Of a stretch of 5,474 nucleotides of DNA, positions 289 through 5,474 are shown piece after piece. Below the pieces are notes generated by a model that saw nothing but the letters and a program-made list of their open reading frames with translations, was not told the DNA's origin and did not search any database. Position 1 is the first letter of the stretch, and every line of letters begins with the position of its first letter. The translations under genes and the position numbers were made by a program. The DNA is from Desulfobacterales bacterium (GTDB taxonomy: Bacteria > Desulfobacterota > Desulfobacteria > Desulfobacterales > JAFDCJ01): positions 5,296,626 through 5,302,099 of the forward strand of contig CP070771.1 in assembly GCA_020345785.1 (NCBI GenBank), given 5' to 3'.

Positions 289-2100
289 CTAGGTTGCCAA
301 AAATATCGCATGCCAGCGTTCCAGGGTATAGAGACGAAAAGCAACGTACTTCAGAGCGGCAATTGGACGGTGCTCGAGTTCCCTGCACAGCTCTTTTAAT
401 CCGTCGCGCCGGAAGTATTCATGGATATGTAAATCGTCCTGCAGCAGGGTTGTTGCCACATGCCGGTAGAATTGACTGCTTTGCATGGGAATCGGAAACT
501 GGCTTTTTTTTCTCTGCAATACCGGCCGGGGCAAATCGGCCCTAAACGCATCCCGCAGCAGCGCTTTTTCTTCGTTGCGTCTGAACTTGCGGTCAAAGGG
601 TAAAGAAAAGACGTATTCCACTAAACGATAGTCGCAAAGCGGACATCGGATCTCGACTGATGATGCCATCCCCAGTCGATCCTCGACTTCCAAAAGCTCC
701 TGCAGATGGATTTTTACCATCAGATAAGACAGTTTGTTTTTAAAGTCATCGGTCTGTCCCGCGGCCATGTACTGCCGGAATATTTCCTCGCTCCTGCTGC
801 AAAAATCCCCGGATTGTTTGAGCGCATCACTCAGAAGATATTTCATCCAGTCATAGGCGGTGACCGGCGGCCGGCCGTCTTCTCCCAGCCGCATGACCCA
901 TGGAAAATAGTCGGTGTTATCCGGTGTGCGGCGGTCGAGCCAGTAGTAGTATCCACCGAATACTTCATCTCCGCCCTGGCCGGTCAAAAGCACGGTGACA
1001 TAGGCTTTGGCCGCCTCGGCCAGTTTCAGGTGTCCGAACTCGGACATGACCAGCAGCGGCTTCTCCCGATGCCAGATGACGCGGTCCAGAGCAAGGGCAT
1101 AGTCGGTCAGATCATAAATCAAAGGCGTGTGCCGCGTCTGGTATTGATCCGCGACGACTTGAGAATAATGGGTATCATCTCCGGTGACCCCTTCAAAGGT
1201 CTTGTCAGGATTTTCGGCAAAGTAAGCCACATTGTCCCGATAACTGACGGTGTAGGTATTGATCGGGCTGCGGTTGACGGCCGTCGCCGCTGCGCAGACA
1301 CAGCTGGAATCCAAACCGCCGCTGAGGGTCAATCCAAGGGCGACATCGCTGCGAAGCTGGATTTTGACGGCTTCTTCAACCATCTCCCGCACGCGGCTGA
1401 CGGCATCGTGGGTCCGGCTTTGATCAAATGGAATGTCCCAATAGCGGTTGATTTCCAGTCCGGCAGCCGTGAAGATAAGGTAATGACCGGCGGGCAGACC
1501 CTTGATGCCTTTAAACATGGTTTCATCGCCCAGCACGTAGAAGCTGAACAGGTAGTCAGACAGGGCATTCAAATTAATTTGAGGCGGGTTGCATCCCGGA
1601 TATTTGAAGATCGACTTGATCTCGGAAGCAAAGATGAATTTTTTCCCGGCCAAACAGTAAAACAGGGGTTTGAGCCCCAGCCGGTCGCGGGCTGCAAACA
1701 ATCGGTCGTGCCGCGCATCCCAGACCGCGAAGGCAAAATCTCCGATCAAATGTTCAAGTGCATCCGTTCCGTAACGCAGGTAGGCATTCAGCAACACCTC
1801 CGTATCGGATCGGGTGTGGAAGATATGACCATCTTTCTCCAATTGTTTGCGAAGCTCGATGTAATTGTAGATTTCGCCGTTGAAAACCAGGGTCACCTGA
1901 CCGGATGGATCCTGCAGGGGTTGATGTCCTTTTTCAAGATCGATGATCGCAAGGCGCCGGTGAGCCAGGGCCGCATGCCGGCCGACATAATCGCCCCGAT
2001 CATCCGGACCCCGGTGCACCAGGGCTTCGGACATCGGGATCAAATCTTCCCTGGAAGGGGAGCTGCTGCCGAAATCAACGATCCCGCAAATTCCGCACAT
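289..2100 (-). CDS. asnB: Glutamine-hydrolysing asparagine synthetase-like amidotransferase
   Basis: A 603-residue protein with the full AsnB architecture. The start is fixed by Met1-Cys2-Gly3, because Cys2 becomes the N-terminal nucleophile of the class II glutaminase domain (about 2-200). Visible glutaminase motifs are RGPDDRG (30-36), Arg49, NGEIYN (74-79) and the SDTE segment with Asp99. The synthetase domain (about 230-600) has the ATP-pyrophosphatase loop SGGLDS (260-265) and GQGGDEVFGGY (374-384). The family hydrolyses glutamine, channels ammonia and amidates an adenylated carboxylate in the cytoplasm. In asparagine synthesis the acceptor is aspartate, but family members in polysaccharide and natural-product clusters use other acceptors. 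GGGGG, 6 nt before the ATG, is a plausible ribosome site. It follows the PP-loop gene by 125 nt, so it may be in the same transcript or have its own promoter. No catalytic motif I checked is missing. Family is certain; substrate is not. Confidence 0.93.
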   Translation of the reverse strand: MCGICGIVDFGSSSPSREDLIPMSEALVHRGPDDRGDYVGRHAALAHRRLAIIDLEKGHQPLQDPSGQVTLVFNGEIYNYIELRKQLEKDGHIFHTRSDTEVLLNAYLRYGTDALEHLIGDFAFAVWDARHDRLFAARDRLGLKPLFYCLAGKKFIFASEIKSIFKYPGCNPPQINLNALSDYLFSFYVLGDETMFKGIKGLPAGHYLIFTAAGLEINRYWDIPFDQSRTHDAVSRVREMVEEAVKIQLRSDVALGLTLSGGLDSSCVCAAATAVNRSPINTYTVSYRDNVAYFAENPDKTFEGVTGDDTHYSQVVADQYQTRHTPLIYDLTDYALALDRVIWHREKPLLVMSEFGHLKLAEAAKAYVTVLLTGQGGDEVFGGYYYWLDRRTPDNTDYFPWVMRLGEDGRPPVTAYDWMKYLLSDALKQSGDFCSRSEEIFRQYMAAGQTDDFKNKLSYLMVKIHLQELLEVEDRLGMASSVEIRCPLCDYRLVEYVFSLPFDRKFRRNEEKALLRDAFRADLPRPVLQRKKSQFPIPMQSSQFYRHVATTLLQDDLHIHEYFRRDGLKELCRELEHRPIAALKYVAFRLYTLERWHAIFLAT

Positions 2101-2225
2101 ATGTTACCCCCAAATCTTTAGGCCTTATTTCCTTAGGAGCGAATATCTAAAGCATGATGCAATGTACTGAAATACGCTCGAGGTTTCAGTCACGCCTCTG
2201 GATTCTCGAGTCAAATGACCAAACT
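2101..2225. other. Intergenic gap with paired CTCGAG palindromes and small inverted repeats
   Basis: This is the largest gap between genes of the cluster. It holds two copies of the palindrome CTCGAG (2177-2182 and 2205-2210, starts 28 nt apart), a perfect 7-bp inverted repeat ACTGAAA/TTTCAGT (2166-2172 and 2184-2190, loop 11 nt) overlapping the first palindrome, and CTTTAG/CTAAAG (2116-2121 and 2147-2152). The hairpins lack a T run on the minus strand, so they are not obvious intrinsic terminators. No sigma-70 promoter with both boxes is convincing. It could be a regulatory or processing region ahead of the asnB-like gene. Confidence 0.3.
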
Positions 2226-3266
2226 TCAAAATTCCGCCGGGTCTAGGCCCAGTTTCAGTGCGATATCCCGGACCAGCCCCATGTTCAGCTCCGCCTGTAC
2301 CGCTTGCAGGGCATCTGCCCGGGTCAGCAGTCCCCGTCGAACCAGATCGGCCAGCTGTTTGGTATAGGGATGGTAGCCCCTAGTCTTGTGATATATATAT
2401 ATTCCTAAAGAATTGAGCAGACAGTTTGTCGAGCAGGAATCGGTATCCGTCGGTTTCTGCCATCCCAGCTCCGCAATCCGGCGGTAGATTTGTCGTTCGT
2501 CGTAACGAATAAAATCAAACATCCTGAGAAATGCTTTTTCCTTGACATCGTCGGCGCTGAGGTGCGTTAAAAAAAGATCTTCCAGGCCCTTAATATCCGC
2601 ATACCGCAGAAAATGATGCATGATCCTGGCAATCGCCAGCCAGGGCTCGGCGCTCATGGCGGATGGAGAACCGACCGGCCGGGCCCGGGTGGCATAGCCT
2701 TTGTAATAATCCGGGTCCTGGGATGTCGTATAGCCGGTCGCAATCAAACGGGCGCCGGTGCGCATGGCCAGACGGATGGCAATAGAGTGGATCATGCAAC
2801 CGCAGACATAGCATACCGGACCATACTCCTGCATGCCCCGGCCGTAAATGCTCTCGGGCGGCATGGCAGGCAGCTCCCGGATGGAGGTTTTAAAAATCCT
2901 GCGGATAACCGCGGGATCCGGGCGGTAGATTTCCGTGTCGACGTTCAGAGCCCGTGTGACGCATTCGATATTACTGAGTGCCCCGGTTGACGTAAATCCA
3001 TGGTCGAAGGTGAAGGCCAAAACCTTCAGCCCGTAGTCCTGCACCAGGGTCTGCAGGGTATAGGTGCTGTCTTTGCCGCCGCTGTAGCAGACGATACAAT
3101 CGTAGGGATCGGACCGGTTTTGCTCCAGCAGCTCCGCGAGATCTTCGGAGGAGCCGGAAGCATCGACGGCTGCAGCGGGTTGCCGGCAAAAATGGCAAAT
3201 TCCCTGCGAGTCGAAGTGCGCGCCGGGAAAGTCGTCGGGAATGATGCACCTGGCACAGATATTCAT
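2226..3266 (-). CDS. PP-loop ATP pyrophosphatase, N-acetyl-sugar amidotransferase / thiolation-like (AANH superfamily)
   Basis: A 346-residue protein when started at the ATG at 3266. A GTG three codons upstream (3275) overlaps the Shine-Dalgarno itself, while GGAGG lies 8 nt before the ATG, so the ATG is preferred. Residues 4-27 hold two CxxC pairs (Cys4/7, Cys24/27), a probable zinc ribbon. The P-loop-like SGGKDS lies at 62-67 and binds and cleaves ATP to AMP and PPi. Further cysteines are CYVCGC (152, 155, 157) and CSTNC (278, 282). The family adenylates a carbonyl oxygen and replaces it with nitrogen or sulfur; relatives include WbpG/PseA-type sugar amidotransferases and, more distantly, Ncs6/TtuA tRNA thiolases, in which similarly placed cysteines hold an Fe-S cluster. 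The ATGA overlap with the ACP gene suggests translational coupling and perhaps an ACP-bound substrate. No separate glutaminase subunit is visible, though the AsnB-like protein downstream has one. Superfamily is sure; the reaction (amidation or thiolation) is not. Confidence 0.85.
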   Translation of the reverse strand: MNICARCIIPDDFPGAHFDSQGICHFCRQPAAAVDASGSSEDLAELLEQNRSDPYDCIVCYSGGKDSTYTLQTLVQDYGLKVLAFTFDHGFTSTGALSNIECVTRALNVDTEIYRPDPAVIRRIFKTSIRELPAMPPESIYGRGMQEYGPVCYVCGCMIHSIAIRLAMRTGARLIATGYTTSQDPDYYKGYATRARPVGSPSAMSAEPWLAIARIMHHFLRYADIKGLEDLFLTHLSADDVKEKAFLRMFDFIRYDERQIYRRIAELGWQKPTDTDSCSTNCLLNSLGIYIYHKTRGYHPYTKQLADLVRRGLLTRADALQAVQAELNMGLVRDIALKLGLDPAEF

Positions 3267-3556
3267 GTCGAACACCTCCGGCGCTGGTTTACAATGTAAT
3301 CGGCGGCCTTGGCAATGGTATCGAATTTGCCGGGGAAAAAATCTTTGGGAGAGACTTTGATATCAAATTCTTCTTCAATGTAGCTGATAATGTTCACCAG
3401 GCTGAGCGAGTCGATAATACCGAGCTGCAATAGAGAATGATCGTCTTCGATCCTAACATCGCCGGCCGATGCGAAGTTCTCCAAAAGAAAGCGCCGCAGT
3501 TTTTCTTTGATAAATTCGGGACTCAACTCCTCTTGTCCTGCTTGAATTTGTGCCAT
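3263..3556 (-). CDS. Stand-alone acyl carrier protein
   Basis: A 97-residue acidic carrier protein of the phosphopantetheine-binding family, slightly longer than a typical 75-85-residue ACP. The LGIIDSLSLV motif contains Asp49-Ser50-Leu51; Ser50 is the expected attachment site for 4'-phosphopantetheine, which a PPTase elsewhere in the genome must add. Helix I is around 13-28, helix II begins at the DSL motif, and the EEEFDIKV segment (61-68) is the usual acidic stretch before helix III. The C terminus ends in a basic tail (RRRC). It carries acyl or aminoacyl intermediates as thioesters in the cytoplasm. Lying alone among an HMGS-like enzyme, a LarA homologue and a PP-loop enzyme, it is probably dedicated to this pathway, not fatty-acid synthesis; no fab genes are visible. 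It follows the LarA-like gene by 73 nt and its stop overlaps the next start as ATGA. A dedicated D-alanyl- or peptidyl-type carrier remains possible, as sequence alone does not give the cargo. Confidence 0.92.
   Translation of the reverse strand: MAQIQAGQEELSPEFIKEKLRRFLLENFASAGDVRIEDDHSLLQLGIIDSLSLVNIISYIEEEFDIKVSPKDFFPGKFDTIAKAADYIVNQRRRCST
3275..3279 (-). promoter_or_regulatory. Ribosome binding site deciding the PP-loop gene start
   Basis: On the minus strand GGAGG ends 8 nt before the ATG at 3266 and lies inside the last codons of the ACP gene. The alternative GTG at 3275 begins within this motif and so could not use it. This supports the downstream ATG and the ATGA stop/start overlap. 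Confidence 0.75.
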
Positions 3557-3566
3557 AGTGGATGGT

Positions 3567-3580
3567 CTCCTCAGTTGGAG
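3567..3580 (-). promoter_or_regulatory. ACP ribosome site within a small hairpin
   Basis: GAGGAG on the minus strand (GGAG at 3567-3570, 10 nt before the ATG at 3556) is the likely ribosome site of the ACP gene. CTCC at 3577-3580 can pair with it across a 6-nt loop. The 4-bp stem is weak, so control by masking is only a possibility. Confidence 0.45.
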
Positions 3581-3629
3581 GTTATTTGTATTTGGGAGTC
3601 ATCAATACAAAATTGCCGATGCGTCGCTG

Positions 3630-4898
3630 CTAAGCGCTCAAAAGCGTCGTGCCGCCATCGGGAACGACGTACATCAAGCTACCGGCCTTAACGTCGGCGA
3701 TCTTTAGGGCGTCGGCGAGATCCCGGGCCGGGGTCATCCCCAGCTGCCTGACCTGGTCCGGCGGCAGCGATGTCACCATGATGACGCGCTGCTGGCGAAG
3801 AAATCGTCGCACTAAATAGGTGTTGTGTCCCGTGAGATCGTAATCGGCCAGAACGGCCCGATCCAGTCCGGCGAAATCCGGGTAAGCAAACCACCGCCAA
3901 AACCCTTGTTTGACGCCCTTGGGGCATTCGGCGACCAGAATCAGGGTCCCCCCGGGCGCTAATGCCTTTTCGCAGTTGAAAACGGTTTTGATGGTTTGCA
4001 TAAAGTTTATGTCATAGGGATACCCCCCGCAGCTTGCCACCACCAGTGGGGCGGGCCTGCCAATGTGCCTTCGATGCACGGCGTCGGCCAGACGGCAGCC
4101 TGCGCGGTGCGCGGCGATGTGATGGCCGGCGACACAATGCTGGAAGCGGTGTTGGTGATCGAGAATCGTATTGAAGATAAAATCCGGTTGCGCCAGTTCG
4201 GCGGCCTCCACCATGTCCCGGTGTACGGGGTTGTCGTCTAGGTTCCCGTAGGTCGCGCGAGGATCGGTACCGCCGGCTGACGACATGACCATGCGATGGT
4301 TGTGCCGGATGCTCTCAAATCCACAGACACCCGGCAAAATCGACTTGCTGCCGCCGGTGAAACCGGCAAAATAATGATGCGTAATTCTGCCGGTCAATAT
4401 CTTTAGATCCGCTTCCATGACAGCCCTGGCGGCTTGGATGCGATTGTCAAAACCGGTTGTGCCGATGTCCACCAGCCGGTTTCGGTCGTGGCAGTCATGG
4501 CCGTACACCCGCACCCGGACGGACAGGGCTCCGCCGATGACCCGGCTTATATCCTGCGGCGTCATGGATTCATGGGTGCCGGTGGCAAACACCACGGTCA
4601 CCTGATCGGCGGAAAGACCGCCGGCCTCCAGCTCTGCCATGACATGCGGCAGAAAGTATTGACTGCCGGTCACCCGGGTCTTGCCCGAAACCAGTATAAC
4701 TGCCGATCGCCTGCCCTCTGCCAGCCGGCGCAGCGGCGGTGTCTCCATCGGACGGCTTAAGGCCTGCTGAATAATCTCATCGCGCGAAGCTGCAGGGGGC
4801 TCAACCCGGCACTGCAGGATCTGCATCTCGACATCTTGCAGCGGCTGAAATTTCAGGCGCTGGCGCCCGTATTTGAGTTGGATGGAATGATTATCCAC
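3630..4898 (-). CDS. LarA-like nickel-pincer 2-hydroxyacid racemase/epimerase homologue
   Basis: A 422-residue protein, close to the 424 residues of Lactobacillus plantarum lactate racemase LarA. Expected NPN-cofactor and catalytic residues are present with family spacing: His109 (TGTH, equivalent to H108), His175 and Lys185 ten apart (HYFAGFTGGSK, equivalent to H174 and K184, the lysine that covalently holds the nickel pincer), and His201 (equivalent to the nickel ligand H200). GGYPYD (291-296) and MQTIK with Gln301 and Lys304 match the second-domain substrate site. Arg75 is kept, but the Asp of the DxTR motif is Gly72 here. LarA homologues racemise or epimerise short 2-hydroxyacids and sugar acids; they need LarB, LarC and LarE for the cofactor, none of which is in the window. 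The start is a GTG overlapping the previous stop by 8 bp; a stop codon lies 7 codons upstream in frame, so no longer start exists. GAGGA lies about 11 nt before. Family is sure; substrate is unknown and may not be lactate. Confidence 0.88.
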   Translation of the reverse strand: MDNHSIQLKYGRQRLKFQPLQDVEMQILQCRVEPPAASRDEIIQQALSRPMETPPLRRLAEGRRSAVILVSGKTRVTGSQYFLPHVMAELEAGGLSADQVTVVFATGTHESMTPQDISRVIGGALSVRVRVYGHDCHDRNRLVDIGTTGFDNRIQAARAVMEADLKILTGRITHHYFAGFTGGSKSILPGVCGFESIRHNHRMVMSSAGGTDPRATYGNLDDNPVHRDMVEAAELAQPDFIFNTILDHQHRFQHCVAGHHIAAHRAGCRLADAVHRRHIGRPAPLVVASCGGYPYDINFMQTIKTVFNCEKALAPGGTLILVAECPKGVKQGFWRWFAYPDFAGLDRAVLADYDLTGHNTYLVRRFLRQQRVIMVTSLPPDQVRQLGMTPARDLADALKIADVKAGSLMYVVPDGGTTLLSA

Positions 4899-5474
4899 TG
4901 TAAATTTTGTCCTCGTAAATCATGGCCGTGGCATAATCGAGCATCTGTTTGTCGGCAATCAACTCCTCGACTGACTTTCCGCGACCTCTTTTCTTTTCAA
5001 TTTCGCCGGTGACCCGCAGGCTGAGCACGTCGCTGCCGGCGCCGGGCCCGTAGGATGCTACCAGGATTCTGTCATCCGGCCGGGCAATGTCCAGTATATT
5101 GCCCAGGCCGATCAGAACCGAGGCCGAAGCGCAGTTTCCCAGTTCGTAAGCGGTATTCGAAGGCGTAATCTTAGAAAGATCGAACTGCAGCGCTTCACCC
5201 AGGGAGAACGGGACGATGCCGTAAGGCTGCTGAAAAACGACGTAGCTAAAATCCTCAGGGCCCAGCTTTTGTTGATCGAAAAACAAGCGCACGGCGGCAA
5301 CGATGTGATCTTTTATCCCAAACCCTGAATCCAGGGCTGCCGCCAGTGACTGGAACCCGCCGGACCGGATATGCTGCTCTCCCTGCAGCCGGAATTCATC
5401 GGAAAGATCCGTGCCATAGGACAGGGTCGCCTCGATTTCAGCGATGACATGGCGGGTTCCCAGGACGACCGCGC
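4891..5474 (-). CDS. HMG-CoA synthase-like thiolase-fold enzyme, C-terminal part (cut by window edge)
   Basis: The frame stays open to the right edge, so this is the last 193 codons of a longer gene; the GTG at 5292 is internal, not a start. The fragment matches the C-terminal half of archaeal/bacterial hydroxymethylglutaryl-CoA synthase: a GGF segment (38-40 of the fragment), a KDHIVAAV helix (54-61), VVFQQPYG (78-85), LGNCASAS (111-118), the YGPGAGSD glycine loop (141-148) and a C-terminal MLDYA...DKIY. In the family the VVF segment normally continues HQPNG, with His as catalytic base (equivalent to the His of FabH HQAN); here it is Gln81. The Asn of the GN motif (Asn112) is kept. The catalytic Glu and Cys would lie beyond the edge. 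The family condenses acetyl groups onto 3-ketoacyl thioesters, or in polyketide beta-branching onto ACP-bound ketones. The stop overlaps the LarA-like start by 8 bp, which suggests coupled expression. A KAS III-like enzyme is the main alternative. Confidence 0.85.
   Translation of the reverse strand, partial: AVVLGTRHVIAEIEATLSYGTDLSDEFRLQGEQHIRSGGFQSLAAALDSGFGIKDHIVAAVRLFFDQQKLGPEDFSYVVFQQPYGIVPFSLGEALQFDLSKITPSNTAYELGNCASASVLIGLGNILDIARPDDRILVASYGPGAGSDVLSLRVTGEIEKKRGRGKSVEELIADKQMLDYATAMIYEDKIYSG

Follow-up and report, generated by a model that had tools for sequence, protein, structure and literature searches.

The window analysed here is a 5,474-nucleotide stretch of the genome of a Desulfobacterales bacterium; it belongs to a contig of 7,205,039 bp (CP070771.1), and our reading is confined to it. 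It holds five open reading frames (ORFs) on the minus strand, which encode, in order, a protein resembling hydroxymethylglutaryl-CoA synthase (HMGS), a LarA-like racemase, an acyl carrier protein (ACP), a PP-loop enzyme and an AsnB-like amidotransferase. The HMGS-like and LarA genes overlap by exactly 8 nt and the ACP and PP-loop genes by exactly 4 nt, while gaps of exactly 73 nt (LarA to ACP) and 125 nt (PP-loop to AsnB) separate the remaining neighbours; the layout of five co-directional genes given by an earlier, sequence-only reading of this DNA thus agrees with the ORF coordinates to the nucleotide. Since homologues or domain matches exist for each of the five genes, these are not chance ORFs, and plus-strand frames within them (e.g. 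706..2121) were taken as shadow ORFs. The genes and the sites within them are as follows.

4891..5472, minus strand: PhlA-like subunit of the HMGS/KAS III fold, 3' part, 193 aa, assigned from solved-structure relatives; the 5' end lies beyond the window
5230..5232, minus strand: Gln codon at the HMGS catalytic His position, from an alignment (FQQP in the window, FHQP in 6esq, FQQ in PhlA)
3630..4898, minus strand: LarA-type nickel-pincer 2-hydroxyacid racemase/epimerase, 422 aa, GTG start (PF09861 9.6e-57 and PF21113 1.1e-14, both above cutoff)
4572..4574, minus strand: LarA His109, aligned to H108 of Lactobacillus plantarum LarA, invariant in 8 aligned rows
4374..4376, minus strand: LarA His175, aligned to H174
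4344..4346, minus strand: LarA Lys185, aligned to K184
4296..4298, minus strand: LarA His201, aligned to H200
3263..3556, minus strand: acyl/peptidyl carrier protein, 97 aa (PF00550 7.7e-10, 39.3 bits against a cutoff of 20.8)
3407..3409, minus strand: ACP Ser50 in IDSLSL, expected phosphopantetheine site, from the translation
2226..3266, minus strand: PP-loop (AANH) enzyme, 346 aa, with a predicted zinc finger and a predicted Fe-S triad; ATG start after GGAGG, alternative GTG at 3275
3186..3257, minus strand: tetracysteine C4-x2-C7...C24-x2-C27, expected zinc site, from an alignment
3066..3083, minus strand: PP-loop SGGKDS, residues 62-67 (133/133 wider relatives, 8/9 subfamily rows)
2802..2813, minus strand: C152-x2-C155, two of three proposed Fe-S ligands (9/9 subfamily, 133/133 wider relatives)
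2421..2423, minus strand: C282 in STNC, third proposed Fe-S ligand, 127 residues past C155
289..2100, minus strand: AsnB-family glutamine-dependent amidotransferase, 603 aa (TIGR01536, 455.6 bits against a cutoff of 267.1)

The PP-loop enzyme belongs to a subfamily of nine listed members, one of which (P0008) is a fragment starting after SGGKDS. The complete cysteine triad C152/C155/C282 is kept in all nine and in all 133 wider relatives. Its spacing of 3 and 127 residues equals that derived from the published residue numbers of CtaC, the closthioamide enzyme, which are C154, C157 and C284 in the accessible passages of PMC6772006; the same passages describe the triad as the Fe-S site of CtaC and of the TtcA/TtuA family, and the C-x2-C...C pattern is one reported for [4Fe-4S] thio-transferases. 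The triad is also present in the three nonribosomal peptide synthetase (NRPS)- or ACP-associated homologues that we compared, and in one of five above-cutoff N-acetyl sugar amidotransferases (NASATs). With its C-x2-C pair and third cysteine, its SGGKDS motif and a carrier protein gene overlapping by 4 nt, the window enzyme displays the features of a CtaC-like protein. It equally displays the tetracysteine and SGGxDS signatures of the NASAT/WbuX group, the former being described for NASAT in the available part of PMC10607449. With the NASAT/WbuX model TIGR03573, however, it reaches 142.4 bits, under the cutoff of 203.2, and a standard sugar amidotransferase (plain WbuX) identity was rejected on that score.

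Members of this enzyme's clade are often found next to, or within, carrier-protein systems elsewhere. In a Roseovarius pelagicus plasmid (L128:12001-12975), the PP-loop domain occupies residues 863-1187 of a 2,682-aa NRPS protein, the gene for which adjoins polysaccharide export and flippase genes. A plasmid of Streptomyces NBC_01216 (L129:8190-14882) carries consecutive genes for AsnB, an adenylation-peptidyl carrier protein (A-PCP), a protein joining PP-loop and condensation domains, and an Asp/Glu racemase; the same four kinds of function are found in the window, but the racemase is unrelated. On a plasmid of Streptomyces NBC_00470 (L130:9746-12696) a PP-loop gene annotated as hypothetical is followed by a short ORF and then by ACP and ketosynthase genes. 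A polysaccharide locus on a plasmid of Agrobacterium sp. MA01 (L131:7251-9065) encodes a glutaminase-like domain fused to a triad-free, WbuX-like PP-loop domain. In a midpoint-rooted tree with long branches, built from 58 rows (a subset of the sequences), the window subfamily joins the Roseovarius and two Streptomyces homologues together with P0082 (support 94/80, just under the level that the tool marks with a star). These, with P0046 and the rows of XrtA type, form one side of the tree (97/95), the opposite side consisting of NASATs and a group from GTDB contigs; possibly false joins are NASAT_L134/NASAT_L136, NASAT_L135/main group, NASATs/GAT_L131 and HYP_L130/CDOM_L129. The sequence-only reading had centred the cluster on its carrier protein and likened it to closthioamide biosynthesis, a view that gains support from the triad, its 127-residue spacing and the carrier-protein context of this clade.

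The carrier protein itself consists of a PP-binding domain with the serine in place. Its nearest solved structure is the peptidyl carrier protein PltL (1.1e-07), and its nearest NCBIfam models, those of an ornithine-lipid ACP and of AmcB, are both below cutoff. The AsnB-like protein carries an N-terminal MCGICG motif and SGGLDS, and to judge from their sequences both proteins look intact. The nearest solved AsnB relative, 7ylz (4.4e-82), is named a hydroxyamidotransferase, making it plausible that the window enzyme acts on an acceptor other than asparagine.

The LarA-like protein combines the Lar_N and LarA_C domains with the His/His/Lys/His site of the superfamily, in which, by the numbering of L. 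plantarum LarA, H108 and H174 are the first and second catalytic histidines, K184 attaches the nickel-pincer nucleotide and H200 ligates nickel. Solved relatives are the lactate racemase 2yjg (2.5e-66) and Mar2 (5.9e-59). With its cofactor residues kept and both domains above cutoff, the protein appears to be the nickel-pincer enzyme that had been proposed. Among the LarAH models, LarAH6 (malate; 356.0 bits, cutoff 500) and LarAH10 (355.6 bits, cutoff 540) tie below both cutoffs, and the others are below theirs as well (293.9/460, 286.3/462, 64.5/740 and 27.3/500), so that on these scores the substrate does not appear to be predictable. LarAH10, LarAH52 and LarAH66 act mostly on hydrophobic 2-hydroxyacids, according to the accessible part of PMC11770544. 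Plasmids yielded 14 LarA records, and the 12 that were listed are 28.6-32.7% identical and either annotated larA or part of an unannotated record.

The best solved relatives of the HMGS-like protein are of PhlA type (9skh, 4.3e-34; 5m3k, 5.1e-34), followed by the HMGS 6esq (6.4e-19), and PhlA is also the nearest solved relative of P0242 (9.4e-78). Seven close relatives share 79-91% identity with the window protein and the next ones 44-46%. The catalytic reference residues of 6esq are Glu82, Cys114 and the His of FHQP; the window does not reach the Glu and Cys sites, and it has Gln at the His site. The close relatives have Cys at the Glu site in all six rows that cover it (P0246 begins past this site) and Thr at the Cys site in all seven. 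PhlA similarly has Gly115 instead of the key Cys and Cys83 instead of the Glu, and in the passages available of the same account (PMC6392133) acyl transfer involves residues of PhlC only, PhlB resembling the DUF35 family. HMGS chemistry was rejected for this gene on the strength of these replacements (Cys/Thr/Gln in the relatives against Glu/Cys/His), and the carbon-carbon bond-forming enzyme of the sequence-only reading gives way to a counterpart of noncatalytic PhlA. On its own the protein is probably incapable of HMGS chemistry and would depend on a thiolase and a DUF35 protein; a role as A subunit in a three-component acyltransferase is the most likely one. The NCBIfam equivalog NF003274 (hydroxymethylglutaryl-CoA synthase) is above cutoff for the full-length relatives P0242, P0248 and P0250 despite their replaced catalytic residues, likely a misnaming.

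The PhlA-like gene ends without a fused DUF35 domain, and no thiolase or DUF35 gene follows it in the window; if nearby, these partners should lie upstream. On plasmids of Priestia (39% identity) and L. plantarum (31%), homologues adjoin genes for a thiolase and a zinc-ribbon/OB protein (the L. plantarum OB match being just under cutoff) and then NRPS genes. The Priestia megaterium plasmid (L138:10001-19101) runs from PhlA-like, thiolase and DUF35 genes through a hypothetical gene to condensation, A-PCP and ketosynthase-PCP-thioesterase (KS-PCP-TE) genes. In a sample of 395 genomes from the phylum of a Syntrophales metagenome-assembled genome, which we take to be Desulfobacterota, 107 had HMGS-like matches at E <= 1e-25, the four best being 33-34% identical to P0248. 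Thirty such loci were aligned: Cys is absent from the Cys site in all of them, and their open frames span 473 to 599 aa. In both loci tested, the HMGS-like part is followed by a zinc-ribbon or OB domain that scores above cutoff. Phage sequences searched with P0248 gave no match.

The close gene set was not found in the 395 sampled genomes, where the best PP-loop and LarA matches scored 226.5 and 319.3 bits, respectively; subfamily scores, self included, are 440-804 bits for the PP-loop enzyme and 578-972 for LarA, in protein searches made with another profile and database. No AsnB reached E <= 1e-130 in any of these genomes, an empty result that is uninformative for want of a positive control. 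A peptide-pattern scan for the PP-loop subfamily in 84,980 species genomes, covering contigs of at least 3 kb and letting members changed in both patterns escape, returned 45 loci, none above 31% identity, and no subfamily member; viral contigs contained no relative.

Linkage is suggested, once in each case elsewhere, by equal contig size and common source: the PP-loop relative P0006 and the LarA relative P0123 are each listed on an ENA contig of 2,896 bp, a length that fits LarA, ACP and PP-loop genes packed as in the window, and the HMGS-like relative P0248 and the LarA relative P0124 are each listed on one of 3,682 bp. As a control, PP-loop and LarA matches of greater distance were paired; three of the 12,765 pairs were equal in size, giving 0.0075 and 0.0066 chance pairs expected among the close relatives, against one observed in each. 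Chance matches in size do occur: P0099, a JGI member of the PP-loop family, also sits on 3,682 bp. Speaking against linkage as a general rule, five relatives' contigs lack a LarA among the matches listed (120 of 538): two with PP-loop genes (9,793 and 5,306 bp) and three with HMGS-like genes (6,099, 4,636 and 4,825 bp). One contig, the longest, is shown per protein cluster, and a missing LarA is thus not conclusive; the gene may lie at a contig end, may be hidden by the longest-contig display, or the set may not be fixed. The idea of one five-gene set, part of the sequence-only reading, accordingly gains two apparent pairwise linkages and is weakened by the relatives' contigs on which no LarA is listed.

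We tentatively read the window, with rather less than even confidence, as the 3' portion of an operon that would make a thiotemplated small molecule, tethered to a carrier protein; AsnB would amidate, and the Fe-S PP-loop enzyme sulfurise, an ACP-bound hydroxyacid derivative. The sequence shows families, motifs, gene order and partial linkage, and we infer all of the chemistry, including substrate, product and the choice of sulfur over nitrogen. The tight co-directional layout, the triad with CtaC spacing, the relatives in carrier systems and the equal-size contig pairs speak for it. LarA would fix the configuration of a 2-hydroxyacid supplied as a free building block, and a ligase encoded outside the window would load the acid onto the ACP. 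The PhlA-like subunit would form a three-component C-acyltransferase with a PhlC-like thiolase and a PhlB-like DUF35 protein, both encoded elsewhere; the window contains no gene for a thiolase, a DUF35 protein, an acyl ligase or LarB, LarC or LarE. AsnB would put nitrogen on a carboxylate, and the PP-loop enzyme would adenylate the carbonyl of the ACP-bound intermediate and insert sulfur via its Fe-S cluster, so that a thioamide or thioacid results. This product may occur as a free metabolite, or it may decorate a surface polysaccharide. That all of these assignments hold at once, with a nickel-pincer racemase setting the hydroxyacid stereocentre, AsnB amidating, the Fe-S PP-loop enzyme making an ACP-bound thioamide or thioacid and a PhlACB-like acyltransferase taking part, is rather doubtful.

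Decoration of an exopolysaccharide is the alternative that survives best, though we consider it rather unlikely. The ACP, PP-loop and AsnB genes would derive from the ACP-ligase-PP-loop(-AsnB) set of XrtA/PEP-CTERM loci, with LarA and the PhlA-like subunit supplying an unusual hydroxyacyl group that is passed to a sugar. PP-loop relatives at E <= 1e-25 occur in 39 of the 395 genomes, and we examined the regions around 20 of them, 18 of which were scored (L076 and L084 were left out), naming neighbours within 6 kb by BLAST with query proteins taken in part from those same loci. An acyl ligase was present in 17 of the 18 and an ACP in 12 (tblastn, through L061 and L064, shows one in two further loci); 11 had a deacetylase-like gene of XrtA type, and five had AsnB. 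The XrtA system deacetylase model TIGR03006 was above cutoff in 6/7 tested, and the window AsnB itself matches the XrtA-type TIGR03108 at 1.6e-115. That match, at 387.2 bits, is under the cutoff of 816.9, as are those of the five AsnBs from the relatives' loci (405.8-463.9); the two ligases tested from these loci also miss the XrtA-model cutoffs. Moreover, the window contains no glycosyltransferase, deacetylase or ligase gene, and the tree places its PP-loop enzyme nearer to the NRPS-type than to the XrtA homologues, albeit on long branches.

It is unlikely, in our estimation, that the cluster performs nitrogen chemistry only. The PP-loop enzyme would then make an amide, amidine or nitrile in the manner of WbpG/WbuX or QueC-like enzymes, AsnB would be a second amidotransferase, and the three cysteines would bind zinc or be structural. 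The absence of the triad from four of the five above-cutoff NASATs, its retention in every wider relative, its Fe-S role in CtaC and the TtcA/TtuA family (in the part of PMC6772006 cited above) and the lack of a hisH/hisF pair in the window argue against this. That the genes form no single pathway but two or three functional units (LarA and the PhlA-like gene; ACP and the PP-loop gene; AsnB) brought together by chance or recent transfer is distinctly improbable given the gene overlaps and the equal-size contig pairs, even though strong LarA matches (13/395) and the PP-loop matches share no genome (about 1.3 expected), relatives' contigs have no listed LarA and GC content differs between ACP (0.459) and LarA (0.597).

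Each of these gene families is known, and so are thiotemplated PP-loop enzymes (CtaC); the set of LarA, ACP, Fe-S-type PP-loop enzyme, PhlA-like protein and AsnB was not found in the openly licensed literature, searched through titles, the beginnings of abstracts and some passages, and the cluster is rare. If the thiotemplated interpretation is true, nickel-pincer chemistry serves carrier-protein-bound biosynthesis, and the locus could lead to new products of the thioamide or thioacid kind. By the same reasoning, other members of this PP-loop clade would sulfurise ACP-bound groups in the XrtA exopolysaccharide loci of many bacteria, and PP-loop genes labelled 'N-acetyl sugar amidotransferase' or '7-cyano-7-deazaguanine synthase' that neighbour ACP genes of XrtA loci may encode Fe-S thio-transferases. 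The curated model is probably mistaken in naming PhlA-like proteins 'hydroxymethylglutaryl-CoA synthase'.

Downstream of the AsnB gene, in the stretch 1-288 (43% GC), lies an imperfect 37-nt inverted repeat (21-57 and 147-183; 76% complementary, 89 nt between the arms) that resembles a palindromic repeat element of small size. An Rfam scan of the window gave no match, and promoter and terminator scans gave counts within or below those of shuffled sequences.

Compared with known systems, the cluster resembles closthioamide biosynthesis (CtaC with its carrier CtaE) in its C-x2-C pair, the cysteine 127 residues further on and the clustered carrier protein, but it has LarA and PhlA-like genes that do not appear in the accessible part of the CtaC account (PMC6772006), and its PP-loop enzyme scores best with sugar-amidotransferase models, the likeness to CtaC being drawn from published residue numbers. 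With NASAT, WbpG and WbuX the enzyme shares the fold, the tetracysteine zinc motif and SGGKDS; it differs in its sub-cutoff score, in a triad that four of five NASATs lack, and in having an ACP neighbour and no hisH/hisF in the window. XrtA/PEP-CTERM exopolysaccharide loci contain ACP, PP-loop and AsnB proteins of the same families, whereas the window has no ligase, deacetylase or glycosyltransferase and possesses LarA and PhlA-like genes in addition. The racemase shares both domains and the His/His/Lys/His site with LarAH6 (malate) and LarAH10 (hydrophobic 2-hydroxyacids), and differs in its tied scores under both cutoffs. Finally, the PhlA-like protein has the HMGS-like fold of the PhlACB acyltransferase (PpATase), and its relatives keep none of the three catalytic residues (Glu, Cys, His), but its gene is followed by larA and not by phlC and phlB, and it is 44-46% identical to its nearest relatives outside the close seven.

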